Source: a virus
Length of the DNA: 24,712 nt
Virus record (IMG/VR): IMGVR_UViG_3300027749_000464
Coordinates: 1-24,712 of that record
Reading direction: 5' to 3' (one strand)
Positions within the stretch are counted from its first letter, which is position 1. The number at the start of each line of letters is the position of its first letter. Below are positions 1,212 through 23,790 of this stretch, one piece after another. Both the position numbers and the translations under genes were made by a program. The notes under the pieces are model-generated. The model was not told the origin of the DNA, ran no database searches, and saw only the letters and a list, made by a program, of their open reading frames with translations.

Positions 1212-2459
1212 ATGAAGATATTTGTCCAAATCGCCTCTTATCGCGACCCTCAATTAATCCCAACAATTAAAAGTATGTTGGAAAACGCCAAAAAACCTAA
1301 GGACGTTGTTTTATCAATTTGTCGACAATATCATCCTGACGATAACTTTGATAATCTTGATGAATATAGAGACGATAAACGATTTAGGATTAAGGATGTT
1401 TTATATTCCGAATCAAAAGGTGTTTGTTGGGCAAGAAATTTAACACAAAAATTATATAAAGGGGAAGAATATACTTTACAGATAGATTCTCATATGAGGT
1501 TTGAAAAGGATTGGGACGACACCCTAATCAAAATGATTAAACAACTTCAAAAGAAAGGATTTCCTAAACCTTTATTAACAGGATACGTTTCATCTTTCGA
1601 CCCCGACAACGACCCCTCAGGCAGAGTTACAGAACCATGGAGAATGTCGTTTGATAGATTTATTCCCGAAGGAGCAGTATTCTTCTTACCTGAAACAATC
1701 CCAAATTGGAGAGAAATGAAAGAACCTGTAACGTCAAGATTTTATTCCGCCCACTTTGCCTTTACGTTAGGAAAGTTTTGTGAAGAGGTCCAACATGACC
1801 CTGAGTTTTATTTTCATGGAGAAGAAATCTCAATCGCAGTTAGAGCGTTTACCCATGGTTATGATTTATTTCATCCTCATAAAGTAGTCATTTGGCACGA
1901 ATACACTCGTAAGGGTAGAACCAAACAATGGGACGATGATAAGGAGTGGGGTAAGAAAAATGAATTGTCCCATAAAAAAAATCGACAATTATTCGGGATG
2001 GATGGCGAAGAAATTACTTTAGATTTTAGTAAATACGGATTCGGGACAGAACGAACATTAAAAGATTATGAAATATATTCAGGATTACGATTCTCAAGAA
2101 GAGCCGTCCAACAATATACATTAGACAAACATTATCCACCAAACCCACAAATATTTGAGACGGAAGAAGAATGGGAAAGTAGTTTTGCTCGTATCTTTAA
2201 ACATTGTATCGATATTGGATTTACTCAAGTACCTGAAAAAGATTATGAATTTTGGGTTGTAGCATTTCACGATGAGAAAGACGAAACCATTTTTAGAAAG
2301 GACGCGGATATCAATGAGATTAATAATATGATGAGAGACCCTGATGGGTATTGTAAAGTATGGAGAGACTTCCAAACGACACATAAACCAAAATATTGGG
2401 TTGTTTGGCCATTTAGTAAATCAAAAGGTTGGTGCGAAAGAATAACAGGTAATTTATAA
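1212..2459 (+). CDS. GT60-type glycosyltransferase (GlcNAc / Skp1 hydroxyproline GnT-like)
   Basis: This 415-aa protein matches the Pfam GlcNAc family (CAZy GT60) by eye. It opens with FVQIASYRD (4-12), has the conserved VCWARN (71-76), and carries a DxD-like metal/nucleotide-sugar site QIDSHMRF (D92-S-H94), followed by WDD. Family members include the Dictyostelium Skp1 enzyme, which moves GlcNAc from UDP-GlcNAc onto hydroxyproline; bacterial and viral members have mostly unknown acceptors. The C-terminal third (from about 300) looks like a separate module of unknown role. It is the first gene of a tight six-gene operon, with only 2 nt to the next gene. There is no Shine-Dalgarno; the leader is A/T-rich. 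The family call is good; the acceptor (virion Thr/Pro linkers or a host glycan) is inference. Confidence 0.8.
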   Translation: MKIFVQIASYRDPQLIPTIKSMLENAKKPKDVVLSICRQYHPDDNFDNLDEYRDDKRFRIKDVLYSESKGVCWARNLTQKLYKGEEYTLQIDSHMRFEKDWDDTLIKMIKQLQKKGFPKPLLTGYVSSFDPDNDPSGRVTEPWRMSFDRFIPEGAVFFLPETIPNWREMKEPVTSRFYSAHFAFTLGKFCEEVQHDPEFYFHGEEISIAVRAFTHGYDLFHPHKVVIWHEYTRKGRTKQWDDDKEWGKKNELSHKKNRQLFGMDGEEITLDFSKYGFGTERTLKDYEIYSGLRFSRRAVQQYTLDKHYPPNPQIFETEEEWESSFARIFKHCIDIGFTQVPEKDYEFWVVAFHDEKDETIFRKDADINEINNMMRDPDGYCKVWRDFQTTHKPKYWVVWPFSKSKGWCERITGNL

Positions 2460-2461
2460 AT

Positions 2462-2836
2462 ATGAAAATGCCAATTAGTGAAATATTAGATAGGTATTCT
2501 ATCGCAATATTAAAAAAAGAAAGAGCGGACGCCGAAAACTCTAAAGAAATTAATGACTTGAGATTTGAAATTGACGGATATCTCAAGGACCATTATGAAT
2601 TTATTAATCAAAAAATCAAAGATTTAATTCAAGTTAATGGTGACATTTGGGATTTGGAGTCCGACATTCGTAGAGGTAAAGAAGGGGAATTAGGTTTAGA
2701 GGAGGTTGGTCGTAGAGCAATAAAAATACGAGAATTTAATAAGACTAGAATCACCTATAAAAATGACGTTGTTGATTATTTTGGTGAAGGATATAAAGAC
2801 ATTAAAATAAATCATGTAAGTAGCGATGATAAATAA
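2462..2836 (+). CDS. DUF6165-like helical protein
   Basis: This 124-aa, almost wholly helical and highly charged protein begins MPISEILDRYSIAILKKERA. It then shows a central IWDLESDIR segment and a C-terminal RAIKIREFNKTRITYKNDV helix. That layout (start with an 'E-I/L-LD-SI-ILK-ER' helix, then 'N..IWD.E..IR', then 'I...N..R...K') resembles DUF6165, a small family often found in lipopolysaccharide or glycan loci; the match is by recollection. The biochemical role is unknown; a scaffold for glycosyltransferases is a guess from context. It starts 2 nt after the GT60 gene and overlaps the next gene by 11 nt. Confidence 0.55.
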   Translation: MKMPISEILDRYSIAILKKERADAENSKEINDLRFEIDGYLKDHYEFINQKIKDLIQVNGDIWDLESDIRRGKEGELGLEEVGRRAIKIREFNKTRITYKNDVVDYFGEGYKDIKINHVSSDDK

Positions 2837-3644
2837 AATTGTAATAACGTTAACAACCGTTCCTGAAAGGTTAATCCATCCCGTTGAGGACGGATTTAAA
2901 TTAGTTGTCCAATCGGTTTGCGAACAAAACTATAGTAACTATGAAGTTCACCTAAACCTTCCTTATGTTTATTCCGTAACGGGAGAAGAGTATCTTATTC
3001 CTGAGTGGTTGATAGGGTTCCAAAATAAATACCCTCACTTAAAGGTATTTAGGGTTGAGGACATGGGACCTCCGACCAAAGTTATACCAACCATACTTAG
3101 AGAATCGCCCGAGACATTATTAATTGTTGTAGACGATGACTTAGTGTATCATCCTGACATGGTTATTGAACATATAAAATATCATGAACAGTTACCAAAC
3201 TCAGTTATCTTATATGACGGTAGAGGGTTGGTTGGGAGTAGATACAACGACTTAAGAGATTCATGGGTAATTTGTGTAACCAAACCAACAAGAATTAGTG
3301 GTATGTTACAACATTATAAATCCGCATCATATTTTGTAAAATATTTCGAACAGGATTTCCACAACAATTTTGTCGGTAAAACAAAATCTGACGATATTCT
3401 AATAACATATTATTTTCTATTTAAAAAAATAAAAATGTATGTTGTTCCATATGAAAGAGATAATGATAAACTTACAACTTACGATAATTGGCATTCCTTC
3501 CAAGGAGTAACAACTTTTCCTGTGATTAGACATTCCAATAGTCTCGGTAATACAGGTTGTAATCACCCAAAAATATTAGAATTAGAAACTAAATTTTTCA
3601 TACCTGAAGAATTTAAGTTTATAGATAAATTACCTTTAGATTAA
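2826..3644 (+). CDS. GT-A fold glycosyltransferase
   Basis: This 272-aa protein starts with a Rossmann-like strand and loop, IVITLTTVPERL (5-16), typical of small GT-A transferases. It has a clear DxD-type metal site LLIVVDDDLVY (D103-D105). Downstream, KSDDILITYYFLFKK (about 188-202) is the expected acceptor-side acidic region, followed by a His-containing C-terminal part. It should transfer a sugar from a nucleotide-sugar donor; donor and acceptor cannot be read from sequence. The ATG overlaps the preceding gene by 11 nt and the next gene starts 3 nt after the stop, so it is co-transcribed with the rest of the sugar operon. There is no membrane segment, so it is likely cytoplasmic. Confidence 0.75.
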   Translation: MINKIVITLTTVPERLIHPVEDGFKLVVQSVCEQNYSNYEVHLNLPYVYSVTGEEYLIPEWLIGFQNKYPHLKVFRVEDMGPPTKVIPTILRESPETLLIVVDDDLVYHPDMVIEHIKYHEQLPNSVILYDGRGLVGSRYNDLRDSWVICVTKPTRISGMLQHYKSASYFVKYFEQDFHNNFVGKTKSDDILITYYFLFKKIKMYVVPYERDNDKLTTYDNWHSFQGVTTFPVIRHSNSLGNTGCNHPKILELETKFFIPEEFKFIDKLPLD

Positions 3645-3647
3645 AAA

Positions 3648-4337
3648 ATGGAATATTTTGAAAAAGTAAAATTATGGGACGATGAACATTGTGAAAAACA
3701 TGTTTGGAACCTTGCTAATAATATGAAAGAATTATTACAATCAAAAAACATAAATGAATTATATTACCTTGACATTGGAGCTAATGTAGGTAAGGTATAT
3801 GATTTAATGAGTAACGGTTATACAGTTAAAAAAGTATGGATGTATGAAGCAAGTCCAATACTTTTTGATTATTTAAAAATTAAGTACACTAATGATGAAC
3901 GAGTTGTAATAAATAATATTGCAATCTCTGATTCTGAAGGAGAAGTTAATTTTGACGAGTCCTCAATTATACATCAAGTTGAAACTAACTCCCCTGATTT
4001 AAATTTTGGGTTGTCTAAGATAGGTAATTCACCCGCACAAACTAAAGTAAAATCTAATAAGTTAAGTAATCTTATAGGTAATAATAATGAAATTTTAGAT
4101 AATGTAACATTTATTAAAATTGACACTGAAAACGTTGACTTTAATATTTTAAATGACTTGGTAACAATAATTGATAGGTTTAAAACAAAACCAATTATTG
4201 AGTTTGAGGTTAATTATCACATGGGACCAATAACTAAAGAAACTGCACAATCTATTTTAGACAAATTCTCAAACATAGGATATAAAGAATTAAAATTAGA
4301 AGATTGTTGGGGTGATGGAATTTTAATACCTGAATAA
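3648..4337 (+). CDS. FkbM-family SAM-dependent methyltransferase
   Basis: This 229-aa protein has SAM-binding motif I YLDIGANVGK (40-49), the acidic residue that should bind the ribose (MYEAS, E67), and FkbM-type features further on: VINNIAISDSEGEV (87-100), the strand VTFIKIDTENVDFNIL and the late strand KPIIEFEVN. FkbM enzymes methylate hydroxyls, often on sugars or glycolipids. Placed between glycosyltransferases, it most likely caps or decorates the sugar the operon builds. It is 3 nt downstream of the previous gene and 1 nt upstream of the next. The family is fairly sure; the substrate is inference. Confidence 0.8.
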   Translation: MEYFEKVKLWDDEHCEKHVWNLANNMKELLQSKNINELYYLDIGANVGKVYDLMSNGYTVKKVWMYEASPILFDYLKIKYTNDERVVINNIAISDSEGEVNFDESSIIHQVETNSPDLNFGLSKIGNSPAQTKVKSNKLSNLIGNNNEILDNVTFIKIDTENVDFNILNDLVTIIDRFKTKPIIEFEVNYHMGPITKETAQSILDKFSNIGYKELKLEDCWGDGILIPE

Positions 4338-4338
4338 A

Positions 4339-5025
4339 ATGAATGAAGAAATTTTAAAAATCGTTAAAGAATTTAATGAGATACCTAAAAAGTATTGGGA
4401 AACAATAAGTCTAACAGGTCCTCAACATGATTTTGAGAGAAGTAAACCTGGACCATATCTAAAAACCGCAGCAAAAATTGCAAGAATTTTAAATATGAAA
4501 ACCGTTGTTGAGATTGGTGCTACAAGATTTGCTTTATCACAAAAATGTTTAGATTATTACAATAATGAAATGAATCCATTTGTGTCACCACCATGTTGTG
4601 CTGATGGTCATGGGGGTATAATTTGGACTATAGAAGGTTTTGATGTTTATTCTTGCGACATAGACCCTAACTGTAAAACACAAGCTGAATGGTCATTTGG
4701 TAATATTAACCAACCATTTCCTGATAATTTACATTTACATATTCCTGAAGATGGGATTGAGTTTCTAAGAAACTTTGATAAAAAAATTGACGTGTTATTT
4801 TTAGATGGTTGGGACACAGGGACTCACGAATATCGTGAAAAACACCTTGAGTCATTTGAGGTCGCTAAAGATAAATTATCTGAGACCCATTTAATATTGA
4901 TTGATGATACGGATTTCAATATTGACGGGGAAGGTAAAGATGCTTTCTTATCCCCACATTTATTATCGTTAGGTTATATTTTATTATTTGACGGAAGACA
5001 AAAATTATACATTAATAAAATTTAA
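4339..5025 (+). CDS. Class I SAM methyltransferase-like protein
   Basis: This 228-aa protein has a Rossmann-type core: TVVEIGATRF (55-64) in place of the usual ExGxGxG loop, then FDVYSCDIDP (101-110) with an acidic residue at the end of strand 2, and KIDVLFLDGWDTGTHEY (149-165), resembling the DxxFxDGxH segment of Methyltransf_24-type enzymes. A final strand HLILIDDTDF (about 184-193) completes the fold. The Gly-rich loop is shorter than normal (EIGATR), so activity is less certain than for the neighbouring FkbM protein. A likely role is O- or N-methylation of a sugar in the same pathway. One nt separates it from the previous stop and 3 nt from the next start. Confidence 0.65.
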   Translation: MNEEILKIVKEFNEIPKKYWETISLTGPQHDFERSKPGPYLKTAAKIARILNMKTVVEIGATRFALSQKCLDYYNNEMNPFVSPPCCADGHGGIIWTIEGFDVYSCDIDPNCKTQAEWSFGNINQPFPDNLHLHIPEDGIEFLRNFDKKIDVLFLDGWDTGTHEYREKHLESFEVAKDKLSETHLILIDDTDFNIDGEGKDAFLSPHLLSLGYILLFDGRQKLYINKI

Positions 5026-5028
5026 GAT

Positions 5029-6702
5029 ATGTTAACATTAGTAACAGGTTTATGGGACTTAGGAAGAGGTGAACTAACTGAAGGTTGGTCAAGGTCGTAT
5101 GAAAATCATTATTTGACTAAATTTAGTGAATTACTAAAGACGGAGAATAACCTCATCATTTTTGGAGATTCCGAATTAGAAAAATTTGTGTGGGAGAGAA
5201 GAGATGATTCAAATACTCAGTTCATTAATAGAAGTTTAGATTGGTTTAAAAATAATGAATTTTATAACAACATTCAAAAAATTAGAACTAACCCTAATTG
5301 GTTTAATCAAGTTGGGTGGTTAAAAGAATCCACGCAAGCAAGGTTAGAAATGTACAATCCACTTGTTATGTGTAAAATGTTTTTATTACATGATGCAAAA
5401 ATCTTAGATAAATTCAATTCTGAGTATATGTTTTGGATTGACGCAGGATTAACTAATACTGTTAGTTCGGGATATTTTACTCATGATAAAGTAATTGATA
5501 AATTACCTAACTTAATTAATAAATTCACATTCATAACATTTCCTTACGAAACAACCTCAGAAATACACGGGTTTGAGTTTAAAAAATTATGTGAGTTATC
5601 AGGAAATAAAGTTAATAAAGTTGCTAGAGGAGGATTCTTTGGTGGACCTAAAGAGACTATAACAGAAACCAACAATTTATATTACCAATTATTAAACACG
5701 ACATTATCAAGTGGGTACATGGGAACTGAAGAAAGTATCTTTAGTATTATGTTATACAAATACCCTATGTTATTTGATTACTCGGAAATTGAAGGTAATG
5801 GTTTGGTTTGGTTATTTTTTGAGAATGTTAAAAACGGGACTTTAAATCTTAAGAATGAACTAACGGGTGGAAAGGTGATTAAAGTTGGGGATATGAGTAA
5901 AGTTGGGTTATATGTTATTGGGTTTAATAGTCCAAAACAGTTTGAGACATTAATACAATCTATGTTACAATACGATAGGAATTTTATTGACAAACCTGTA
6001 AAGTACCTATTAGATAACTCAACTGATTTATCAACCACTGAAAGGTACTTGGAACTATGTAATGAATACGGATTTGAACATATTAAAAAAGATAATATTG
6101 GTATTAGTGGTGGTAGACAATTTATTGCCGAACATTTCAGTAAAACTGATTTAGAGTTTATGTATTTCTTTGAAGACGATATGTTCTTTTATCCTAAAAA
6201 AGGTGATGTATGTAGAAACGGATTTAACAGATTTGTTGATAATTTATATACAAAATCCCTAACAATTATTAGAAACGAAAAATTAGACTTTTTAAAATTA
6301 AATTTTAGTGAATTCTATGGGGATAACTCAACACAGTTTGCATGGTACAACGTACCGCAAGTTGTTAGAGAATCAATTTGGCCTAACAATAAACGACTAC
6401 CTGTTCAAGGACTAGACCCAAATGCTCCAAAAACAAATTTTGAAATGATAAAATCATATGAGGGAGTTCCGTATGCTACAGGATACATTTTTTACTGTAA
6501 CTGGCCTCAAGTCGTGTCAAAAGAAGGTAATTATAGAATGTTTATAGAAACTACATTTCAATCACCGCACGAACAGACTCTTATGAGTTTTATGTATCAA
6601 GAGACCATTAAAGGTAAAATAAAATCAGGAATCTTATTGATGACACCTACTGAACATAACAGATTCGACTTTTACTCAAGTGATTTAAGAAAAGAATGTT
6701 AA
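5029..6702 (+). CDS. Two-domain glycosyltransferase: HtrL/YibB-like N-terminus plus GT-A C-terminus
   Basis: This 557-aa protein appears to join two sugar-related domains. Residues 1 to about 265 resemble the HtrL/YibB (WlaTC) family: opening TLVTGLWDLGRG (3-14), the Y..F..LL region, and the core YMFWIDAGLT with D138 and G140. Residues about 290-557 form a second GT-A-like unit starting VGLYVIGFNSPKQF, with a DxD-like site FFEDDMFF (E382-D384), and ending in a region with TGYIFYCNWP and SPHEQTLMSF. Each half is about the length of a stand-alone transferase, so this is probably a bifunctional enzyme adding two sugars in turn. It is the last gene of the operon and converges on the HNH gene, sharing the stop tetranucleotide TTAA at 6699-6702. 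Donors and acceptors are unknown. Confidence 0.7.
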   Translation: MLTLVTGLWDLGRGELTEGWSRSYENHYLTKFSELLKTENNLIIFGDSELEKFVWERRDDSNTQFINRSLDWFKNNEFYNNIQKIRTNPNWFNQVGWLKESTQARLEMYNPLVMCKMFLLHDAKILDKFNSEYMFWIDAGLTNTVSSGYFTHDKVIDKLPNLINKFTFITFPYETTSEIHGFEFKKLCELSGNKVNKVARGGFFGGPKETITETNNLYYQLLNTTLSSGYMGTEESIFSIMLYKYPMLFDYSEIEGNGLVWLFFENVKNGTLNLKNELTGGKVIKVGDMSKVGLYVIGFNSPKQFETLIQSMLQYDRNFIDKPVKYLLDNSTDLSTTERYLELCNEYGFEHIKKDNIGISGGRQFIAEHFSKTDLEFMYFFEDDMFFYPKKGDVCRNGFNRFVDNLYTKSLTIIRNEKLDFLKLNFSEFYGDNSTQFAWYNVPQVVRESIWPNNKRLPVQGLDPNAPKTNFEMIKSYEGVPYATGYIFYCNWPQVVSKEGNYRMFIETTFQSPHEQTLMSFMYQETIKGKIKSGILLMTPTEHNRFDFYSSDLRKEC

Positions 6703-7313
6703 GATAATATCTTATTACTTTTTTTAAGATTGTCTTCGGCCCATAGTGGTTGAAGATTTGTATAATGATATAATTTACATAGTTCTTTCTCTGTTTTAGC
6801 CGATGATAATGGTATGATATGGTCTAAATGCCAACCATAATATCCGTAATTATCCCACGACATACCATTGATAAATTTACATTCAATATAATTAATTAAA
6901 AATTCATAATCACAACCAACTAAATTAGTTGTTCTTGGGTTATTATATTTTTTATTCATTAATTCATTTATTCTTGACCTTAAACTATTTTTTAATTTAG
7001 ATATTGGATTTGAATTATAGTTGTTAATATAATTCCTTCTATGTTCTTTATTTTTTTTAACCCAATCTTTATATAGATTAGGATTATTTTCCACATAAAT
7101 TTTTCTTCTTTTTTTTATTTTTTCCGAATTTTTACTAACATAAATTTTATTTTGTTCTTTTATTTTGTCTTTATTATTTGAATAATGTGAAACCGAATTA
7201 CTATTCATACATTTTTTACATTGTCCTCTATAAATGTTAGGGTTTTTACTATGTTTATAAAACATACAAACCTCTTTTTCTTCTTGACATTTACTACATA
7301 TCTTTTTTTCCAT
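6699..7313 (-). CDS. Free-standing HNH endonuclease (homing type), copy 1
   Basis: This 204-aa protein has an N-terminal zinc-binding knuckle (C6-x2-C9 and C32-x2-C35), a long Lys/Asn-rich helical middle, and a C-terminal HNH nuclease domain: WHLDHIIPLSSAKTE (His162, Asp164-His165) followed by YTNLQPLWAEDNLKK (Asn186, Asn195). It should nick or cut double-stranded DNA, as mobile HNH genes in T4-like phages do. It closely resembles the HNH protein at 17565-18266 over the last 70 residues. Its ATG lies inside the end of a small RHH-like gene (20-nt overlap) in another frame. Its stop overlaps the converging glycosyltransferase by 4 nt. Codons are even more A/T-rich than those of the neighbours, consistent with a mobile gene. 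Confidence 0.88.
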   Translation of the reverse strand: MEKKICSKCQEEKEVCMFYKHSKNPNIYRGQCKKCMNSNSVSHYSNNKDKIKEQNKIYVSKNSEKIKKRRKIYVENNPNLYKDWVKKNKEHRRNYINNYNSNPISKLKNSLRSRINELMNKKYNNPRTTNLVGCDYEFLINYIECKFINGMSWDNYGYYGWHLDHIIPLSSAKTEKELCKLYHYTNLQPLWAEDNLKKSNKILS

Positions 7314-7545: not shown

Positions 7546-8157
7546 ATGGAATTTTTTATTAAAAAAAATGCTACTTTACCAATTCTTAAACTTTCCGTGG
7601 TGAAGGATGGGAGAAGTGAGTACAACAATTTTATGAAATTGATTGAGGTATCTTCTTTGTTTTTTTCTATGGTTGATATTGAGACAGGAATCCCAAAAAT
7701 AACCTCAAGACCTGCGGGGTTTGTTGAGAAGACGTTTATAGAACCAAACGCGGAACCCGAATATTATTTGTATTATCAATTTACTAACCGAGACACAAGT
7801 AAGGTTGGTAGATATGAAGGTCAATTTATGTTGAGAAGTAGTGATGGTGTATTGATATTACCAATCAGAGAAAAACTTTATATTAATATCCAAGACTCAT
7901 TTATTGCTGACGATTTACCATATGACAGTTGTTATGTGTCTGAATTCCCTTGTTGTATTAATGGACCTGTGGTCACTCAAACAACTACGACCCCATGTCC
8001 AAGTTGTCCAACATGTCCACCACCAACACCGACACCGTTACCGACAACAACGACTACTACAATTTCTCCGACAACAACGACTACTACAACTCCAGAAGGT
8101 GGGTTAAACGTATTAGACATACCAGAAAATGATTTGAATTTCGGATTAATATTATAA
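7546..8157 (+). CDS. Virion-type protein with Cys/Thr/Pro-rich C-terminal tract
   Basis: This 203-aa protein has a beta-rich N-terminal domain (1 to about 125) beginning FFIKKNATLPILKLSVVKDG. It continues with short strands such as YYLYYQFTNRD (73-83) and GRYEGQFMLRSSDGVLILPI (88-107). The layout recalls immunoglobulin-like N-terminal domains of baseplate or fibre proteins (for example BppU-type), but the resemblance is loose. Residues about 141-183 are a low-complexity tract with a PCPSCPTCPPP stretch and runs of Thr, followed by a short C-terminal tail GGLNVLDIPENDLNFGLIL. The Cys pairs could bind metal or form disulphides. It lies 20 nt upstream of the LCIB-like gene, so the two are probably co-expressed. 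Likely a structural protein; role unknown. Confidence 0.6.
   Translation: MEFFIKKNATLPILKLSVVKDGRSEYNNFMKLIEVSSLFFSMVDIETGIPKITSRPAGFVEKTFIEPNAEPEYYLYYQFTNRDTSKVGRYEGQFMLRSSDGVLILPIREKLYINIQDSFIADDLPYDSCYVSEFPCCINGPVVTQTTTTPCPSCPTCPPPTPTPLPTTTTTTISPTTTTTTTPEGGLNVLDIPENDLNFGLIL
7977..8094 (+). repeat. Thr/Pro/Cys codon repeat tract
   Basis: ACN runs with interspersed CCN and TGT codons encode the C-terminal low-complexity tract of the 203-aa protein. The units acaacaacgactactaca occur twice (8044-8061 and 8071-8088), with ATTTCTCCG between them, suggesting a small tandem duplication. Confidence 0.6.
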
Positions 8158-8177: not shown

Positions 8178-9257
8178 ATGATACAAGGAATTAGAATAAC
8201 AAGTACAAATTTATCAGGACTAACGGCAAACGTTACTTTTTATCCCACAACTGGTGGGTCAGAAAATTTAGGGACTCAAGTAATACCATTTAACAATATT
8301 TCGGATTATCCTTATGGAACATACGAATTAAACGTTCCATTATATGATAGAACATATGAAATAATTGTACCAGCACCATTAACAGGTCAGAGTGCGTATA
8401 CTCAAACAGTAAGAACTGTTACTGTTGACGGAGGAGCCCAACCATTTTCAGGAGCCGTATTATCTGAAGTGTGGGGAACATATACAACAGAATATATTAC
8501 AAATGAAGGAATACCATCAACTGATATTGTTTTAGCTGAAGGTATTTGTTCTGATGATGTGGACGCGGCATATTTACCTGGAAATATCGGTGAATGGCCA
8601 ACAAGTATTAATTCTTTCTTAGGACCATTTATGTCAGGTGGGTTAGCAGGATATCCGTTTGTTGGTAGTGTTGGTTACGGAGCGTTTGCGAGTCACGTAG
8701 CAACAACTCTTGTCGGAACCTTATTTGTTACAAGTATGCCACACATTGGTGTGACTGAAGATGGTCGTTCAGGAAGAATGTTACGTAGAGGTAAAGCTGA
8801 TAGTATAACAGATAATACTTGTGGTGCAGTTTGGGGAGCAATTAACCAAGTTGTTAATGTTTTAACTCAAGCTCCAAGTCAAGACAATCCACCGTTTAAC
8901 GATGGTAACTATTCTTTTTGGAAATTAACGGATATTTTATGGCCGTTTCGTGAAACATTATCAGGATTCACAGGAACTAGTGAAGTGATATATAATAAAC
9001 AAATGGTTTATGCGACAGAAATAATTAGAGATGCGGCATATGATTACATTATTGCTAATTTACCAGCAGCAACAACTGGAAACACCACAAATGATGTATA
9101 TTTTTTAAGTGGTATTTTTATCAATACTGATGTTATTCCTGACAGTACATTACAATTTGAATCTTATGTTGTTGTTGATAAAGTTATGAAATATGAATTT
9201 GGTATTGGTTGGAGTGATATTACCGCAAGTTATAACACTGGATTACCAATTGACTAA
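8178..9257 (+). CDS. LCIB-type beta-carbonic-anhydrase-like domain fused to a virion-like N-terminus
   Basis: This 359-aa protein seems to have two parts. Residues 1 to about 95 (LSGLTANVTFYPTTGG near 12-27, YGTYELNVPLYDRTYEI near 46-62) look like a beta-sandwich module of phage fibre proteins. Residues about 98-345 match my memory of the LCIB/LCIC beta-carbonic anhydrase family: GICSDDVD (122-129), GLAGYPFVGSVGYGAFASHV (155-174), TSMPHIGVTEDG (185-196), MLRRGK (201-206), DNTCGA (212-217) and the late LSGIFINTD (310-318). Three candidate zinc ligands are in family order: C124, H189 and C215; D126/D127 could supply the acidic partner. Family members interconvert CO2 and bicarbonate, though some are inactive. 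An inactive, repurposed fold is possible. It is followed by a terminator and then the polymerase gene. Confidence 0.65.
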   Translation: MIQGIRITSTNLSGLTANVTFYPTTGGSENLGTQVIPFNNISDYPYGTYELNVPLYDRTYEIIVPAPLTGQSAYTQTVRTVTVDGGAQPFSGAVLSEVWGTYTTEYITNEGIPSTDIVLAEGICSDDVDAAYLPGNIGEWPTSINSFLGPFMSGGLAGYPFVGSVGYGAFASHVATTLVGTLFVTSMPHIGVTEDGRSGRMLRRGKADSITDNTCGAVWGAINQVVNVLTQAPSQDNPPFNDGNYSFWKLTDILWPFRETLSGFTGTSEVIYNKQMVYATEIIRDAAYDYIIANLPAATTGNTTNDVYFLSGIFINTDVIPDSTLQFESYVVVDKVMKYEFGIGWSDITASYNTGLPID

Positions 9258-9369: not shown

Positions 9370-12159
9370 ATGATAAGTCAAGAAGAAATTAAAGCGTTCC
9401 TAGAAGGGAACGACCCTGAAGAGCACATCGTTGCCATTGAGTTCGATTATCTAACGGATTCAATTTATAAAATCAAAGAAATTCCTGGAAAAGGAAAAGA
9501 AATTCGTAAAGACACTTTTACCCCATTTGCTTGGGTCGGTGATTTACGTGGTTTAAATTTTTACCAATCATCTAAAGGTCTTCAGAAAGAAGCCATGTCC
9601 AAACATGGAATTATGATTGAGAAATTAGAGACCAAAGGTAATGACCGATTAGAGCAAGGGTTAAAGTATATGGTTAAATGTCTGAAAGGTTATCGACAAT
9701 TAATCCAATTTTTTAGAGAGGGTGGAGTAGACCCATGGGGGGAAAACACCAAAGACAAGATTATGATTCTACCTCCTGTAGAACAATATCTAATTTCAAG
9801 AGAGAAACGTTTATTTAAAGGATATGAAGAATACAATGACATCACCCGATTTGTATTCGACTTAGAGACGACCGCGTTAGAACCAAAAGACGGTCGTATA
9901 TTCATGATAGGAATTAAAACTAATAAAGGTTATCAGAAAGTTATTGAGTGTTCGGATGAGGATGAGGAACGCAGAGGTTTGGTCGAATTCTTTAGAATTA
10001 TTGATGAATTAAAACCAAGTATTATTGGTGGATACAATTCCGCAAACTTCGATTGGTTTTGGATATTGGAGAGGTGTAAGGCTCTTCATTTAGATATTAA
10101 AAAAATCTGTCATACCTTAAATCCGAAACAAAATTTAAGACAAACTGAAAATATGTTAAAACTTGCCAACGAGGTTGAGAGATACAATCAAGTTGGTATA
10201 TGGGGTTATAATGTTATTGATATTATCCACTCTGTAAGACGAGCCCAAGCAATTAATTCGGGTATTAAGTCCGCAGGTTTGAAGTATATTACTCAGTACA
10301 TTAAAGCTGAAGCTCCTGACCGTGTATATATATCCCATGAAGAGATTGGGTCAATGTATAAGGATAAAAATGAATATTGGTTAAATGTTAAAAACGGTAA
10401 ATACAAAAGAGCGGATAAACCCGAATTCAATGATTTAGATACACGATTTCCTGGGACATACATTAAAGTTACAGGGGACAACATTGTTGAGAGATATCTT
10501 GATGATGACTTAGAGGAAACATTATTGGTCGATGACGAGTTTAATCAAGGAACTTTTCTATTGGCTTCATTAGTACCAACAACTTATGAAAGAGTTTCAA
10601 CAATGGGTACCGCAACATTATGGAAAATGATTATGTTGGCATGGTCATATAAACATAAATTGGCCATCCCGAAGAAACAAGAAAAGACGGATTTTGTTGG
10701 TGGGTTATCAAGACTTCTAAAAGTTGGTTATTCAAGAAACGTATTAAAACTCGATTACTCTTCACTATACCCATCAATTCAGTTAGTTCATGATGTGTTT
10801 CCTGAATGTGATGTTACAGGGGCGATGAAAGGTTTATTAGCGTATTTCAGAAATAGTCGTATCATGTATAAAAACTTGGCATCCGAGTGGTATGATAAGG
10901 ATAAAAAGAAATCATTATCTTATGACCGTAAACAGTTACCTATTAAGATTTTCATTAATTCTTTATTCGGAGCGTTATCCGCACCACAAGTATTTGCTTG
11001 GGGAGACATGTTCATGGGGGAACAGATTACTTGTACAGGTAGACAATATCTTCGTCAGATGATTAAGTTCTTTATGAAGAAAGGATATACCCCTCTTGTA
11101 ATGGATACCGATGGTGTCAACTTCTCTAAACCTGAAGGGTGGGAAAATAGACGATATGTTGGTAAAGGATTAAATTGGAAAGTTAAAGAGGGTAAGGAAT
11201 ATACAGGAGATGATGCCGATGTTGCGGAGTTTAATGATTTATTCATGAGAGGTGAGATGGCGTTAGATACCGATGGGACTTGGCCGTCATGTATTAACTT
11301 GGCTCGTAAGAACTATGCGGTTATGGAGGCAAGTGGAAAAGTTAAGCTTACAGGTAACACAATTAAATCCAAAAAGTTACCATTATATATTGAGGCGTTT
11401 TTAGATAAAGGTGTTAAGATGTTGTTAGAGGGTAAAGGTCAAGAGTTTGTGGAGTGGTATTATACTTACATACAAAAAATCAACGATAAACAAATTCCGT
11501 TAATGCAAATCGCACAAAGAGCGAAAGTGAAACTGTCAATCGATGATTATAAAAAACGTTGTACACAAACAACAAAGGCGGGGTCATTAATGAGTAGGAT
11601 GGCACACATGGAATTGGCGATACAACATAAACTAAACGTTAAATTAGGGGACGTAATTCATTATGTTAATAACGGAACAAAGGCGTCCCAAGGAGATGTT
11701 CAAAAAGTTAATAAACTTAAACGAGGATGGAGTTCTGAACAACTTCAATATTATTTCTCAGACCACGGAAAATATCCTGCCGACTCAATGACATCGATGA
11801 TTCAAATCAATTGTTATAAGTTAGACCCAAAGGTTATTGAGGAAAACCCTGAAATGACGGGGGATTATAATGTTCCGAGAGCACTCACAACATTTAATAA
11901 AAGGATAGAACCATTATTGGTAGTGTTTAAAGATGAGGTACGTGATGGGTTATTAGTTACAAATCCTGAAGATAGAGGTTTCTTTACTAAAGAACAATGT
12001 ACCCTAATCAACGGAGTTCCATTTAAAGAAGGGGACCAAGATACTTTAGAAGAAGTATTAACTTTATCTGAAGGGGAAGTTAAGTATTGGGATAAGAGAG
12101 GTCTTGACCCTGACTATATTTATGAATTAGCATCTGAAGGATGGGAAGAGTTTGTTTAA
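9370..12159 (+). CDS. Family B DNA polymerase with 3'-5' exonuclease (T4 gp43-like)
   Basis: This 929-aa replicative polymerase has all the expected motifs. Exonuclease: Exo I VFDLETTAL (D164, E166), Exo II IIGGYNSANFDWF, and Exo III around YNQVGIWGYNVIDI and GLKYITQYI. Polymerase: motif A LKLDYSSLYPS (D462), motif B KIFINSLFGAL, and motif C VMDTDGVNF (D579, D581), followed by KKLPLYIEAFLDKG in the thumb region. Length is close to T4 gp43 (898 aa), and I see no intein or frameshift. Motif C has Gly where most family B enzymes have Ser (DTDS). The ATG is isolated after a 112-nt gap holding a terminator, a promoter-like motif and a hairpin. Its stop shares TTAA (12156-12159) with the converging 117-aa gene. 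It copies the phage genome in the host cytoplasm. Confidence 0.95.
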   Translation: MISQEEIKAFLEGNDPEEHIVAIEFDYLTDSIYKIKEIPGKGKEIRKDTFTPFAWVGDLRGLNFYQSSKGLQKEAMSKHGIMIEKLETKGNDRLEQGLKYMVKCLKGYRQLIQFFREGGVDPWGENTKDKIMILPPVEQYLISREKRLFKGYEEYNDITRFVFDLETTALEPKDGRIFMIGIKTNKGYQKVIECSDEDEERRGLVEFFRIIDELKPSIIGGYNSANFDWFWILERCKALHLDIKKICHTLNPKQNLRQTENMLKLANEVERYNQVGIWGYNVIDIIHSVRRAQAINSGIKSAGLKYITQYIKAEAPDRVYISHEEIGSMYKDKNEYWLNVKNGKYKRADKPEFNDLDTRFPGTYIKVTGDNIVERYLDDDLEETLLVDDEFNQGTFLLASLVPTTYERVSTMGTATLWKMIMLAWSYKHKLAIPKKQEKTDFVGGLSRLLKVGYSRNVLKLDYSSLYPSIQLVHDVFPECDVTGAMKGLLAYFRNSRIMYKNLASEWYDKDKKKSLSYDRKQLPIKIFINSLFGALSAPQVFAWGDMFMGEQITCTGRQYLRQMIKFFMKKGYTPLVMDTDGVNFSKPEGWENRRYVGKGLNWKVKEGKEYTGDDADVAEFNDLFMRGEMALDTDGTWPSCINLARKNYAVMEASGKVKLTGNTIKSKKLPLYIEAFLDKGVKMLLEGKGQEFVEWYYTYIQKINDKQIPLMQIAQRAKVKLSIDDYKKRCTQTTKAGSLMSRMAHMELAIQHKLNVKLGDVIHYVNNGTKASQGDVQKVNKLKRGWSSEQLQYYFSDHGKYPADSMTSMIQINCYKLDPKVIEENPEMTGDYNVPRALTTFNKRIEPLLVVFKDEVRDGLLVTNPEDRGFFTKEQCTLINGVPFKEGDQDTLEEVLTLSEGEVKYWDKRGLDPDYIYELASEGWEEFV

Positions 12160-13645: not shown

Positions 13646-13660
13646 TTATATATAAATATC
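13646..13660 (-). promoter_or_regulatory. Leader motif GATATTTATATATAA
   Basis: On the minus strand this lies 9 nt before the ATG of the neck gene (13636), overlapping the very end of the SOD-fusion frame. It belongs to the TATTTAT-centred family and would allow the neck gene to be transcribed separately from the genes upstream. Confidence 0.4.
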
Positions 13661-15197
13661 AATTTAATGTATAAATTAAATCTTCTTCAGGGAAAACATA
13701 AACTCCTTGAGTTATCTTTACCCGTTTATTACTGAAAATCAGCACTTCTTTATTTTTTTTGGTGAATACCATCCAATCAGTCGAGTACCTTTTAACTTGT
13801 CCTGTATCTAATACGATGATTTTACCTTCTTCTTGTTTGATTCGACTAAACGGTTTTATTTGAGCGGTGTTTGTCTTTCCATCAACAGTTACTTTACAGT
13901 CGATTCCACCAATCATATCCTCTTTATTACCCAATTCACCAATTTGCTCAACGTTATCGTCACCAAATTTTTTCTTTAATAAAACAACCGCATAATCTTC
14001 GGTTTTACCTCCTATATCGTGAGTAATCCCTAACGTCGCCATTAAATTTTGAAATGTCCCTGAGTGAGGGGTAAAAATTCTTGATTTATATTTATCTAAC
14101 GCGTTAACAAATTTTTTGGTTTCACTAATTTGTTCAAAAGGTTTTAACCCAATAATTTTAATTTCGGGATTACCTTCATTAACCATAACTTTGTTAATAT
14201 CCGTTAACAAAATACAAAAACAAGTATAATTGGTGTTGAGTTTATTAATCACCGACCTTCCCTCAATTTCTAAATCATAGATGCCCGACATTTGACCATC
14301 ACCATATTCGTTTTGACCATAATAGTTATCGGGATAAATTTCTTGTAGTATCTTTTCAATACCGTATCTAAAAGTATTTTTAACTTTTGGATTAATGTTA
14401 AAAACAAATCTTATCGCCTCATTCATATCTCTACCACATTTTTCTGATTTACCCTCAGATAAAACTTCTCGTAATGAAACGGTTTCATCCATTTTTTTCT
14501 TTAACCTCATCCCCAATAATTGGTTCACAAATTTCCAATTAACACACTTCCAAAAATTCTGAATATATTCATCTTTCTTATTTCTGTATTTTAAATAATA
14601 GGCGTGTTCCCATAAGTCTAAACCTAAAACAGGGTAACCCCCATTTTCAACAACATTCATTAATGGGTTATCTTGGTTTGGTGTTGAGACAATCTTTAGG
14701 GTATTACGATTAGTTAAAACTAACCAAACCCATCCTGAACCAAATCGGTCTTTACAAACCTCCTCAAATTTAATTTTAAATTTTTGGAATGTCCCGAAGT
14801 CTTTCTTTATCTTATCTAAGATATCACCATTTGGTGTTTGTGTCTTTGGAGATAACATTTTCCAAAATAATGCGTGGTTAAATGCTCCACCAGCATTATT
14901 TCTAATTGTTTTATCGTACTTACCAATTGATTTGATAATGTCTTCTAACTCTAAATCACCATAGTCTTTTTTTGATAACGAGGAATTTAATTTGTCAACG
15001 TAACCTTTATAATGTTTGTTATAATGGTACTCCATTGTTTCCGCGTCAATAAACTGTTTAAGGGATGAATAGGCGTAAGGTAATTTTTCAATTCCTATTT
15101 TTTTCATTTCAGTCAAAAAAAGTTTTTGGTTGTCTTTTTTTTCCTCTACGATTAACTGTTCTGTTATTATGTTAATCTTTTCTTGTATTTTTTTCAT
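13659..15197 (-). CDS. Mn-type superoxide dismutase domain fused to a probable PD-(D/E)XK nuclease
   Basis: This 512-aa fusion has a complete Fe/Mn superoxide dismutase at about 39-227. LPYAYSSL, EYHYNKHY (H58), NNAGGAFNHALFW (H108), GSGWVWLV and LDLWEHAYY (D194, H198) give the full metal-binding set. G104, with Q175 in PNQDNPL, is the manganese-type pattern rather than the iron-type Gln at the first site. Residues about 235-390 are unrecognised. Residues about 395-500 look like a PD-(D/E)XK nuclease core: helix TEDYAVVLLKKKFG, then MIGGIDCKV (D433), then NTAQIKPF (Q446-x-K448), with Gln in the place of the usual Glu. The N-terminus contains INIITEQ. The gene lies 17 nt downstream of the SNF2 helicase. 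The SOD call is strong; the nuclease call is moderate. Confidence 0.82.
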   Translation of the reverse strand: MKKIQEKINIITEQLIVEEKKDNQKLFLTEMKKIGIEKLPYAYSSLKQFIDAETMEYHYNKHYKGYVDKLNSSLSKKDYGDLELEDIIKSIGKYDKTIRNNAGGAFNHALFWKMLSPKTQTPNGDILDKIKKDFGTFQKFKIKFEEVCKDRFGSGWVWLVLTNRNTLKIVSTPNQDNPLMNVVENGGYPVLGLDLWEHAYYLKYRNKKDEYIQNFWKCVNWKFVNQLLGMRLKKKMDETVSLREVLSEGKSEKCGRDMNEAIRFVFNINPKVKNTFRYGIEKILQEIYPDNYYGQNEYGDGQMSGIYDLEIEGRSVINKLNTNYTCFCILLTDINKVMVNEGNPEIKIIGLKPFEQISETKKFVNALDKYKSRIFTPHSGTFQNLMATLGITHDIGGKTEDYAVVLLKKKFGDDNVEQIGELGNKEDMIGGIDCKVTVDGKTNTAQIKPFSRIKQEEGKIIVLDTGQVKRYSTDWMVFTKKNKEVLIFSNKRVKITQGVYVFPEEDLIYTLN

Positions 15198-17052: not shown

Positions 17053-17568
17053 ATGAGTGATTTAAGAGTACCCATAACAAGAATTGGGAAATTTTTTGGG
17101 TCCGAAGATTATGATTTGGAAATCCGATTTGGAGAAGAATGGTTGTATGGAGATATGAACTTCACCTTAGTATTATATAGAATTGATAAACAAAAAAGTA
17201 AAACAGATAACGTTTACGGAGAAACAGTGTCTGACGGTATTAAATTTTTACCTCCAATCGAATTTAAAGGACACGTTCAAATTATGGCACCTGAGAATAA
17301 AAACTTAGGTAATTCTAAAATTGAACAGTTTGAGCCAGGTAATTTAAAAGTTTCTGTGTATCAAAAACAATTGGACGAATTAGGTATTGATATTAATTTT
17401 GGTGATTATATTGGATACTACGAAACTGAGGATAGAGTTAGATATTATACGGTGAATAACGATGGAAGGGTAATATCTGATACTAAACATAGTTACGCGG
17501 GGTACAAACCGTTTTATAGAAGTATAATAGCATCGCCAGTCACAAATAATGAGTTTAGAGGGTTATGA
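17053..17568 (+). CDS. Probable neck / head-completion protein (T4 gp14-like)
   Basis: This 171-aa beta-rich protein begins MSDLRVPITRIGKFFGSEDY. It contains TDNVYGETVSDGIKFLPPIE (about 51-70), a VSVYQKQLDELGIDINFGDYIGYY-type segment (about 105-128, only paraphrased here) and a final YAGYKPFYRSIIASP. The pattern of a short acidic 'D..YGE' turn, then 'F.P....G.V', then 'GD.I.Y' resembles gp14-like neck proteins of T4-type phages, though the match is weak. Position supports it: with the gp13-like gene nearby and gp15-like and sheath genes downstream, it would keep the T4 order 13-14-15-18. Its stop overlaps the HNH start (ATGA, 17565-17568). It could instead be another head-tail connector. Confidence 0.5.
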   Translation: MSDLRVPITRIGKFFGSEDYDLEIRFGEEWLYGDMNFTLVLYRIDKQKSKTDNVYGETVSDGIKFLPPIEFKGHVQIMAPENKNLGNSKIEQFEPGNLKVSVYQKQLDELGIDINFGDYIGYYETEDRVRYYTVNNDGRVISDTKHSYAGYKPFYRSIIASPVTNNEFRGL

Positions 17569-20430: not shown

Positions 20431-23400
20431 ATGGCAACAAACAACAAAGTATTCGTGTCTCCTGGAGTGTATACCTCTGAAGTTGATTTGAGTTTTGTGG
20501 CACAAAGTGTAGGTGTTACAACTTTAGGTATTGTTGGTGAGACTCAAAAAGGTCCCGCTTTCGAACCTATCTTTATCAGAAACTTCGATGAGTTTTCATC
20601 ATATTTCGGGGGAACATCTCCTGAAAAATTCATAAACACACAAATTCCTAAATATGAAGCGGCGTATATCGCAAAGGCTTACTTACAACAATCTAACCAA
20701 TTGTTCGTAACAAGAGTATTAGGTTTATCAGGTTATGATGCGGGTCCATCTTGGTCAATCACTACAAAAGCAAACGTTAATCCAAAAACAGTTGAGTTTG
20801 ATTGTATATCAGGTGTGACTGTTGACTGTGTATTTGAATGTACGTTACCTCACGTTATTAGTTACTCAATTCCGTTTACGGGTTGTACTAATAGTGTTAA
20901 TAGTATTTCATTTACAGGACCTATTCCATCAGAAATAGTTGCTAAATTAAATTTACCGTATGAAAACTTTAATGGTAGTACTGGTACATTATATCAAGAT
21001 ATGACAAATCAAATTTTTGATATTATAAACGCAACTAATCCATATATTGCAGAAACAACTAACATTAATTATTACGGGCCTATTTCAGGTGACGTATATA
21101 ATTCACTATCACCAATTTTCACGGCAGAAACAAACGTATTTGACGTTGAGAATGTTGATGAGAGTATGATTAATTACGCGGCACCACAAAACGACCCTTG
21201 GTATTACGCTTTATTCGATAATGTAGGAAATGCGGTTTATAGTGGTTATTCTTTTTGGTCAATTGTTACGGAGTTAACGGAAGTAATTAGTACAACAACA
21301 ACAACAAGTACTTTACCGACACCAACCCCAACACCTGACCCTTGTAACCCAATTCCAACAGGAACAACAACAACTACCACATTACCTAAACCAACAAAAT
21401 GTTATACAGGTGTTTTAACAGGTCAAATCTACATATATAAAGGTGAAGCTTTCACAGACTTTGATGATTTAGTTGTTGCGACTTTACGTTCAAGAGGATT
21501 AGCAACATATGGTGCAGATAACGGAGCGGTTTATGAAGTTCCAGGTGGTGTTAATGCGTATAACGAATTTGACGGTCATAATGTACAATTAGATTGTACA
21601 GGAGCGTATTCAGGGGTAACTAAAAACCCATTCTCAACATTTGGTATTAATGTAATAGATAAAGACGGTAATCCGTTCTTCTTTGAAACGTCATTATCAA
21701 ATTCAGACAGTAAGTACATTTCTAAAGTGTTCGGACAATCTAATTTTGCAAAACCAAGAACGGTTGTTCCATTGTTTGTAGAAGAGAGATTCCAAGCATT
21801 ATTAACTTATGGATGGAGAAAAGGATATATCAGAGGTTTAAATTGTGAGTTAACGGCATTACCTGACGCAAGACAAGGTGTTGACCCAACATCAATCGCT
21901 TGGTATCTTGAAAAATACCAATCACCGACATCACCATGGGTTGTGTCTGAATTGAGAGGTACAAAAGTATATAACTTATTTAAATTTACTACGATTGCTG
22001 ATGGAGATGACGCAAACATTGAAGTTAAAATCTCAATCGCAAACATCTCATTTAACAATGGTACTTTTGACGTAATTATTAGAGATTTCTTTGACTCAGA
22101 TAATAGTCCTGTAGTTCTTGAGAAATTCACAAACTGTTCTATGGACCCTAATGATAATAGTTTTATCGCTAAAAAAATAGGTACATTAGACGGGGAATAT
22201 GCTTTGAACTCTAAATTTGTTATGATTGAACTTAACGAGGACGCTCCAATAGACGCATTACCTTGTGGATTTGAAGGCTATAACTTTAGAGAGTATGCAG
22301 GTGTTAGACCTCCATTCCCAATATATAAAACAAAATACGATTACCCAGGTGAAGTTGTTTATGACCCACCATTTGGTTTATCATCAGGAGCTGATGATGT
22401 TGTAAGAAGTGCAGGAGACAATGTTCGTAGAACTTATCTTGGTATTTCCGACACAGTTGGTTTTGACGTTGACTTCTACACATATAAAGGTAAACAATTA
22501 CCGTTAGATGTTTGTACAGATGTTTCAGGTGATGAATGGGCATATAAGACAAGAGGTTTCCACATGGATATTAACGCAAGTGGTATTACAATACCAAGTT
22601 ATTTTTCTACAAGTGGTACCCCAGCGTTCTTCGTAGGTTCGGCACCATTTACTTCAGACCCTGATAACGAAGCGAATCCGTATTACAGATTATACGCACG
22701 TAAATTCTCGTTATTATGTCACGGAGGTTTTGATGGATGGGACATCTACACTGAACACAGAACAAATGCTGATAGATTCGTATTAGGTAAGATTGGTTAT
22801 AGAAATGGGTCATGTCCTTCATTCAAATACCCAACGGCTACAGGATGGGGAGCGTTTAAACAAATCACTGTTGGTAACAACGGACAAGATTGGGCAAACA
22901 CTGACTATTACGCATACTTATTAGGACAACAAACATTCTCTAACCCTGAGGCGGTTAATATTAACGTATTCGTTACTCCAGGTATTGATTATGTAAACCA
23001 TTCTAACTTAGTAGGTGACGCAATCGAAATGATTGAGTACAACAGAGCGGATTCAGTTTATATCTGTACAACTCCTGACTACAACATGTTTGTACCGTCA
23101 ACAGGTGACCAATTAGATATGATTTATCCACAAGAAGCGGTAGACAATTTGGAAACTGCGGGTATCGACTCAAACTATACGGCAACTTATTACCCATGGG
23201 TTTTAACAAGAGATACTGTAAATAACACACAAATCTATATCCCTGCTACGGCTGAGGTGACAAGAAACTTGGCGTTAACAGATAATATCGCATTCCCTTG
23301 GTTCGCTGCGGCGGGTTACACTCGTGGTATCGTAAGTGCTATTAAAGCGAGAAAGAAACTTACCCAAGAAGATAGAGACGTTCTTTATAAAGGTAGAATT

Positions 23401-23790
23401 AACCCAATCGCAACCTTCTCTGATGTTGGAACCGTAATTTGGGGTAACAAGACTATGCAAATTAGAGAATCTGCTCTTGACAGAATCAACGTAAGAAGAT
23501 TATTGTTACAAGCTCGTAAATTAATTTCAGCGGTTTCAGTAAGACTATTGTTTGAACAAAACGATGAGAAAGTAAGACAAGATTTCTTGGATGCGGTTAA
23601 CCCTATCTTAGACGCTATTAGAAGAGACAGAGGTTTATACGATTTCCGTGTGACAGTTTCTTCGGATGTTGCTGACTTGGATAGAAACCAATTAACAGGT
23701 AAGATTTATATCAAACCGACTAAATCTCTTGAGTTCATAGACATCACGTTCTATATTACTCCAACAGGTGCATCGTTTGATAATATCTAA
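20431..23790 (+). CDS. Contractile tail sheath protein (T4 gp18-like), with Thr-Pro insert
   Basis: This 1119-aa protein has the sheath N-terminus FVSPGVYTSEVDLSFV (8-23) with TTLGIVGETQKGPAFEP, and the sheath C-terminal core. The core includes FPWFAAAGYTRGIV, KKLTQEDRDVLYKGRINPIA, WGNKTMQIRESALDRINVRR, LLEQ-type contacts, and KSLEFIDITFYI near the end. Subunits form the contractile tube around the tail and shorten it to drive infection. T4 gp18 is 659 aa, so about 460 residues are extra and lie in the middle, where surface domains are inserted in other sheaths. That middle part holds a Thr/Pro-rich tract at residues 288-322, containing TPTPTPDPCNPIP and two Thr runs. The gene is preceded by a promoter-like motif and followed by a strong terminator. 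Confidence 0.95.
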   Translation: MATNNKVFVSPGVYTSEVDLSFVAQSVGVTTLGIVGETQKGPAFEPIFIRNFDEFSSYFGGTSPEKFINTQIPKYEAAYIAKAYLQQSNQLFVTRVLGLSGYDAGPSWSITTKANVNPKTVEFDCISGVTVDCVFECTLPHVISYSIPFTGCTNSVNSISFTGPIPSEIVAKLNLPYENFNGSTGTLYQDMTNQIFDIINATNPYIAETTNINYYGPISGDVYNSLSPIFTAETNVFDVENVDESMINYAAPQNDPWYYALFDNVGNAVYSGYSFWSIVTELTEVISTTTTTSTLPTPTPTPDPCNPIPTGTTTTTTLPKPTKCYTGVLTGQIYIYKGEAFTDFDDLVVATLRSRGLATYGADNGAVYEVPGGVNAYNEFDGHNVQLDCTGAYSGVTKNPFSTFGINVIDKDGNPFFFETSLSNSDSKYISKVFGQSNFAKPRTVVPLFVEERFQALLTYGWRKGYIRGLNCELTALPDARQGVDPTSIAWYLEKYQSPTSPWVVSELRGTKVYNLFKFTTIADGDDANIEVKISIANISFNNGTFDVIIRDFFDSDNSPVVLEKFTNCSMDPNDNSFIAKKIGTLDGEYALNSKFVMIELNEDAPIDALPCGFEGYNFREYAGVRPPFPIYKTKYDYPGEVVYDPPFGLSSGADDVVRSAGDNVRRTYLGISDTVGFDVDFYTYKGKQLPLDVCTDVSGDEWAYKTRGFHMDINASGITIPSYFSTSGTPAFFVGSAPFTSDPDNEANPYYRLYARKFSLLCHGGFDGWDIYTEHRTNADRFVLGKIGYRNGSCPSFKYPTATGWGAFKQITVGNNGQDWANTDYYAYLLGQQTFSNPEAVNINVFVTPGIDYVNHSNLVGDAIEMIEYNRADSVYICTTPDYNMFVPSTGDQLDMIYPQEAVDNLETAGIDSNYTATYYPWVLTRDTVNNTQIYIPATAEVTRNLALTDNIAFPWFAAAGYTRGIVSAIKARKKLTQEDRDVLYKGRINPIATFSDVGTVIWGNKTMQIRESALDRINVRRLLLQARKLISAVSVRLLFEQNDEKVRQDFLDAVNPILDAIRRDRGLYDFRVTVSSDVADLDRNQLTGKIYIKPTKSLEFIDITFYITPTGASFDNI
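21292..21396 (+). repeat. Thr/Pro codon repeat inside the tail sheath gene
   Basis: ACA-rich and CCN codons encode residues 288-322 of the sheath, with Thr runs on both sides of a TPTPTPDPC core. The 11-mer gacccttgtaa at 21337-21347 also occurs in the first Thr-Pro gene (170-180), in the same reading context (Asp-Pro-Cys). Confidence 0.7.

Follow-up and report, generated by a model that had tools for sequence, protein, structure and literature searches.

An LCIB-type beta-carbonic-anhydrase domain joined to putative structural proteins in a group of phages

The DNA analysed here, hereafter called the window, is the whole 24,712-nucleotide stretch of IMG/VR virus record IMGVR_UViG_3300027749_000464, a source contig of 24.7 kb. 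On its plus strand lies an open reading frame (ORF) whose product combines an N-terminal beta module with a domain of the LCIB type, a divergent group of beta-carbonic anhydrases. This ORF, its parts and the two other genes most relevant to its interpretation are located as follows.

7546..8157, + strand: upstream gene with a Thr/Pro-rich C-terminus, an ORF in the same cluster as the LCIB gene
8178-9257, + strand: LCIB-bearing ORF, ATG to stop, 359 aa
8178..8387, + strand: residues 1-70, N-terminal beta module, anchor-like and common to the phage group (predicted strands and recurrence)
8388..8465, + strand: residues 71-96, linker with one helix (predicted at 71-79, the rest little structured)
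8466..9176, + strand: residues 97-333, LCIB-type beta-carbonic-anhydrase domain (Pfam PF18599, PDB matches and Foldseek)
9177..9257, + strand: residues 334-359 and the stop codon, phage-specific C-terminal tail (predicted strands and helix)
20431..23790, + strand: tail sheath gene (PHROG tail sheath, E=8e-57)

An earlier sequence-only reading of this locus had described the first 95 residues of the protein as fibre-like. Only about 65-70 of these residues form a beta module, with strands predicted at positions 5-7, 16-23, 29-35, 38-40, 47-53 and 58-64, and they are followed by a linker of about 26 residues. The motifs quoted by that reading are all present and in order, namely GICSDDVD (containing C124), GAFASHV (H173), TSMPHIGVTEDG (H189), DNTCGA (C215) and LSGIFINTD. 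The C-terminal tail is kept across the phage clade and is missing in most cellular LCIBs.

The tail sheath gene implies that the virus has a contractile tail. The sheath protein is 1119 aa long, about twice the length of its counterpart at locus L066 (576 aa), and contains a long extra region with TTTTTSTLPTPTPTP-type linkers. The Thr-rich product of the gene at 7546..8157 has no match in Pfam or PHROG, and in many relatives a homologue of this gene directly precedes either the LCIB gene or the polymerase gene. With a DNA polymerase gene next downstream of the LCIB ORF and glycosyltransferase-like genes on its upstream side, the context in the window is not by itself structural.

The assignment to the LCIB family, proposed from the letters alone, is borne out by profile and structure comparisons. 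Residues 103-333 score 93.7 bits with Pfam PF18599 (LCIB_C_CA), whose curated cut-off is 25 (E=1.3e-26), and a phmmer search of the PDB retrieved 6kfs (2e-12) and PtLCIB4 of the diatom Phaeodactylum tricornutum (5b5y, 8e-9). An AlphaFold2 monomer model built on a mixed phage and bacterial alignment (pLDDT 77, pTM 0.73), in which confidence is low at residues 129-165, part of the active-site region, superimposes on PtLCIB4 and 6kfs (E about 1e-12, TM 0.80-0.82 by target), the Foldseek values for chain A of 5b5y being an E of 1.3e-12 and a TM score of 0.82 normalised by target. At E<=0.001, Foldseek retrieved from the PDB only PtLCIB4, in wild-type and mutant forms, and 6kfs (TM 0.78-0.82 by target). 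No match to the carbonic-anhydrase domain was found by Foldseek among predicted viral proteins, where the best hit, an uncultured phage protein (E 0.04), covers 79 columns and is too short to be such a domain. PHROGs and NCBIfam hold no family for the window protein. The phage domain shares with PtLCIB4 the fold, the Cys-His-Cys positions, the Asp-Arg pair, the equivalent of His88 and the Ser after the first Cys; it differs by an identity of only about 24% and by its fusion to phage modules, which the algal proteins lack. Algal LCIBs such as PtLCIB4 serve the chloroplast CO2-concentrating mechanism (PMC9614477).

The predicted active-site residues were located by alignment with PtLCIB4, whose numbering was fixed by the positions named in its PDB mutants (S47 and H88).

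8547..8549, + strand: codon of C124, predicted zinc ligand, aligned with PtLCIB4 Cys46
8553..8555, + strand: codon of D126, Asp of the Asp-Arg pair, aligned with PtLCIB4 Asp48
8694..8696, + strand: codon of H173, aligned with PtLCIB4 His88, the residue mutated in PDB 5b5z
8742..8744, + strand: codon of H189, predicted zinc ligand, aligned with PtLCIB4 H102
8784..8786, + strand: codon of R203, Arg of the Asp-Arg pair, aligned with PtLCIB4 R116
8820..8822, + strand: codon of C215, predicted zinc ligand, aligned with PtLCIB4 C126

None of the six residues varies across 30 phage and 22 cellular sequences (52 in total), and the contexts of C124, H189 and C215 (CSD, HxG and CGA, respectively) follow the LCIB_C_CA pattern. 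The three candidate zinc ligands named earlier thus coincide with the Cys/His/Cys positions of PtLCIB4. In the alignment of the 30 phage domains, 58 of 237 columns are invariant; the probability that all six active-site residues would fall among them under random placement is about 2e-4, which, together with their identity in the 22 cellular LCIBs, excludes chance. The neighbouring R204 was rejected as a catalytic residue, its position being occupied by K, P, I or V in other sequences. S125 corresponds to S47 of PtLCIB4 and is replaced by Ala at two loci (L061 and L069). Taken together, sequence and model indicate that the domain is a true member of the LCIB family retaining all known active-site residues. 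A median dN/dS of 0.18, calculated for the domain of the window protein and 20 close relatives, indicates in addition that it is under strong purifying selection. PtLCIB3 and PtLCIB4 are reported to be constitutively active (PMC9614477). Conservation of these residues is nevertheless no proof of activity, since Chlamydomonas LCIB and LCIC keep the fold and the zinc site and yet are inactive as purified proteins (PMC5876011).

IMG/VR, queried both with the window protein alone and with an alignment, yielded 67 viral loci at 40-88% identity that encode all or part of the domain. They belong to a lineage of large, uncultivated tailed phages, with contigs reaching 272 kb; some of these loci are identical and may represent one virus sampled repeatedly. 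Exactly one copy of the domain was present in each of the 18 contigs tested. The cellular relatives, sought in 84,980 GTDB species, are stand-alone proteins of about 230 aa, mostly from Bacteroidota and Balneolota and also from Planctomycetota and others. They possess the same six residues and differ from the phage domains by the lack of N- or C-terminal phage modules, by a higher content of charged residues and by their position in the maximum-likelihood tree, where the phage domains group together on a long branch as a single clade (100/100), apart from bacterial and algal LCIBs. Such a single, long-branched clade argues for one entry into this virus group or for movement within it, and not for repeated pickup from present-day hosts. 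A hint that the hosts are Bacteroidota comes from the A-rich leaders 5' of the start codons and from short ORFs of the secreted type whose starts resemble Bacteroidota signal peptides (e.g. MKKLILTFLILSSIKSFSQK).

The sequence-only reading knew of no described phage LCIB protein, and this agrees with PHROG, with the phage collection and with the accessible literature. Neither the window protein, nor a divergent phage LCIB domain, nor two of the carriers described below gave a tblastn match in the 50,697 phage records of INPHARED; this collection therefore contains no isolated phage with the domain. A search of the accessible literature on LCIB or carbonic anhydrase in phages found nothing describing the domain. 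The LCIB family is known, and its occurrence in phages and grafting onto phage structural proteins are, as far as searched, not described.

The domain is found in at least four architectures. In the window type, it follows the beta module, which recurs in related phages both as short stand-alone ORFs and within large proteins with Pro/Thr linkers. At locus L189, the same module is fused to an unrelated domain of about 620 aa, in an ORF whose end lies about 400 bp before the same DNA polymerase gene. A second type (L068 and L069) has another, tail-fibre-like N-terminus (MAQTKDQLTALLNSNITDAL...NTFVGDQTISGSV). At locus L066, the homologue of this N-terminus is encoded by a separate upstream gene, which the LCIB ORF follows. 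Both L066 ORFs, like the LCIB ORF of L068, are flanked by neck-type genes (phrog_211) on one side and by tail sheath and tube genes on the other.

The clearest architecture is the third (L057, L059 and L070), in which a conserved protein of about 500 aa has a 273-aa LCIB domain cleanly inserted in one of its loops. Among the 77 relatives of this protein with both ends readable, the insertion is present in two, plus one partial ORF, and the other 75 have a short Gly/Ser/Thr-rich loop at the same point. The L059 contig encodes a T4-like major head protein, head protease, portal and terminase within about 5-15 kb, and from such neighbours we infer a structural role for the carrier. The structure model of a carrier devoid of LCIB (L192) was poor (pLDDT 48), and neither the 500-aa carrier nor the N-terminal module nor the fibre-like N-terminus matched a structural family in Pfam or PHROG. 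A 516-aa ORF preceding the L057 carrier, considered as gp5-like because of a DPLMLGRVRG motif, gave no profile match and is not relied on. The fourth type (L061) consists of a short N-terminus, the LCIB domain and a different C-terminal part of about 110 aa. Directly 5' of this gene (L061:1098-6026) are two tandem carbamoyltransferase genes, the second of which is fused to an HtrL_YibB-type domain; the same contig carries a GroES-like ORF at 11820-12110 and a GroEL-like ORF starting at 12103.

The proposal that the domain is fused to a virion-like module draws its support from relatives of the window, in which modules are swapped and the genes sit in structural clusters, either from neck to sheath (L066 and L068) or near head genes (L059). 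The case for display on the particle rests mainly on the grafting of the domain onto several putative structural proteins, its active site always being intact.

The presence of the gene is patchy. Among loci with at least 2.5 kb of sequence upstream of a window-type DNA polymerase gene, 7 of 60 have an LCIB gene in this interval, a lower bound since the L025 contig has it farther away. At L031 and L032, identical over the compared stretch, positions 5820-6110 bear a deletion scar joining an upstream gene with a broken frame to the last 30 or so LCIB codons. Patchiness and scar together imply that the gene has been both gained and lost, and the comparison of these loci indicates that the domain is an accessory trait among related phages.

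The composition of the domain is also distinctive. Charged residues account for 12.6% of phage LCIB domains versus 20.3% of cellular LCIBs, and the former are richer in Ser/Thr, Gly, Tyr and Trp. Within the window, the charged fraction is 14.3% in the LCIB domain, 10% in the N-terminal module and 19% in the tail sheath, as against 24-32% in the enzymes (polymerase, helicase-like, superoxide dismutase fusion and glycosyltransferase-like proteins). The low charge fits what would be expected of an exposed virion domain, which is supporting but not decisive.

From these observations, we favour, with somewhat better than even confidence, a reading in which the protein would belong to the virion and carry an LCIB-type beta-carbonic-anhydrase domain that would be mobile, accessory, displayed and probably catalytic. 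If the carriers are virion parts, the domain would be exposed at the particle surface, with tail, neck or fibre structures as the probable sites. By analogy with other LCIBs it would form a homodimer with the active site close to the interface of the subunits, and its residues predict that it could bind zinc and interconvert CO2 and bicarbonate plus a proton. The least certain step is what the enzyme would do at the host surface, where it might turn CO2 from the respiring cell into local bicarbonate and protons, so that pH or bicarbonate beside the tail would shift during adsorption or injection; alternatively, the enzyme may travel into the cell. A more specific proposal, that a particle-borne carbonic anhydrase at the tail or neck uses host CO2 as a cue or lever, the shift in pH or bicarbonate favouring adsorption, sheath firing or envelope passage on living cells, is speculative and we regard it as rather improbable. 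If true, it would amount to a catalytic, gas-dependent step in phage entry.

Two other readings keep a function for the domain and differ in where or how it would act. It could be displayed and devoid of carbonic-anhydrase activity, serving as an adhesin or scaffold for a ligand of the host surface. Vaccinia D8, whose fold is that of an alpha-type carbonic anhydrase, would then be a parallel. D8 exposes this fold on the surface of the virus particle, where it binds chondroitin sulfate and acts in adsorption, and so provides a precedent for a virion adhesin (PMC8619513). The phage domain, in contrast, is of the LCIB beta type and keeps its whole active site. The different domain borne by a sister phage (L189) on the same module and at the same position is what exchangeable binding domains would produce, and the inactive algal LCIBs demonstrate that a zinc site can be retained without activity (PMC5876011). 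However, the six residues are invariant across 40-88% identity and several carrier types, and they include the catalytic-site His and the Asp-Arg pair, which would be superfluous to a pure adhesin. A loss of catalytic residues, as would be expected of a D8-like inactive adhesin, was seen in none of the 30 phage sequences, and the strong purifying selection is unlike that of a diversifying receptor-binding tip. We therefore consider this adhesin reading unlikely. The sequence-only reading had left open whether the phage carries an enzyme or reuses the fold on its tail; this choice is now narrowed, pure structural reuse being the less likely branch because every phage member retains the complete active site.

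The intact active site is also compatible with an auxiliary metabolic enzyme acting in the infected cell, where it would provide bicarbonate for carbamoyl-phosphate, nucleotide or lipid synthesis or buffer the pH, the fused module aiding only folding or localisation. The two carbamoyltransferase genes just upstream in L061 and the DNA polymerase gene adjoining in many relatives agree with such a role, as does the existence of carbonic anhydrases in giant viruses, where they are supposed to be auxiliary genes (PMC13037468). Fusion to, or insertion in, different putative structural proteins, a location between neck and sheath genes and a fibre-like composition would nevertheless be unexpected for a soluble cytoplasmic enzyme, and the carbamoyltransferases adjoin in one context only; on balance, this seems quite improbable. 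The patchy distribution (7 of 60 polymerase loci with at least 2.5 kb upstream) and the L031/L032 scar could finally suggest a decayed or passenger insertion devoid of function, a notion contradicted by the selection signal (dN/dS 0.18), by the open frames among the 67 loci and by the invariant active site, and to which we give hardly any credence.

Enzymes associated with phage virions are usually hydrolases or lyases acting on the cell surface. An enzyme of CO2 and bicarbonate repeatedly grafted onto phage structural proteins would represent a new kind of virion enzyme and would raise the question of whether dissolved CO2 or local pH is relevant to phage adsorption or DNA entry. The family, best known for CO2 concentration in algae, would be extended to viruses of bacteria, and the many natural fusions are usable for structural and biochemical work. 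The giant-virus enzymes, such as that of vOTU6 from Karenia brevis blooms, share with the phage domain the fact of being virus-encoded carbonic anhydrases; they differ in belonging to viruses of eukaryotes and in their proposed intracellular auxiliary role (PMC13037468), and they are not known to be fused to structural proteins.

Several other features of the window and its relatives deserve mention. A 512-aa ORF on the minus strand (13659-15197) combines an Fe/Mn superoxide dismutase at residues 36-226 (NCBIfam Mn-SOD 2e-58, Pfam 7e-39 and 3e-22) with a C-terminal domain, and by these profile matches it is a second case of an enzyme domain joined to a phage protein; the ORF in the equivalent position in L036 (11509-12393, minus strand) is shorter, at 294 aa, and the dismutase part is probably missing from it. 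Many proteins of the phage group have long Pro-Thr or Thr-only linkers, among them products of the window (2-376 and 7546-8157) and of L030 (1721-3640), L188 (3-1925) and L137 (384-2345), one of these proteins also having leucine-rich repeats, and together they resemble an extensive repertoire of interchangeable surface proteins. In the window (1212-6702), L271 and L275, successive ORFs resembling genes for glycosyltransferases, methyltransferases and sugar metabolism suggest that a glycan is made or modified by the phage, perhaps on its own surface proteins. Two HNH-endonuclease-like ORFs of the window (6699-7313, minus strand, and 17565-18266, plus strand), which have Cys-x-x-Cys at the N-terminus and the motif HLDHIIPLSSA / IHIDHIIPLSSA, are probable homing endonuclease genes.
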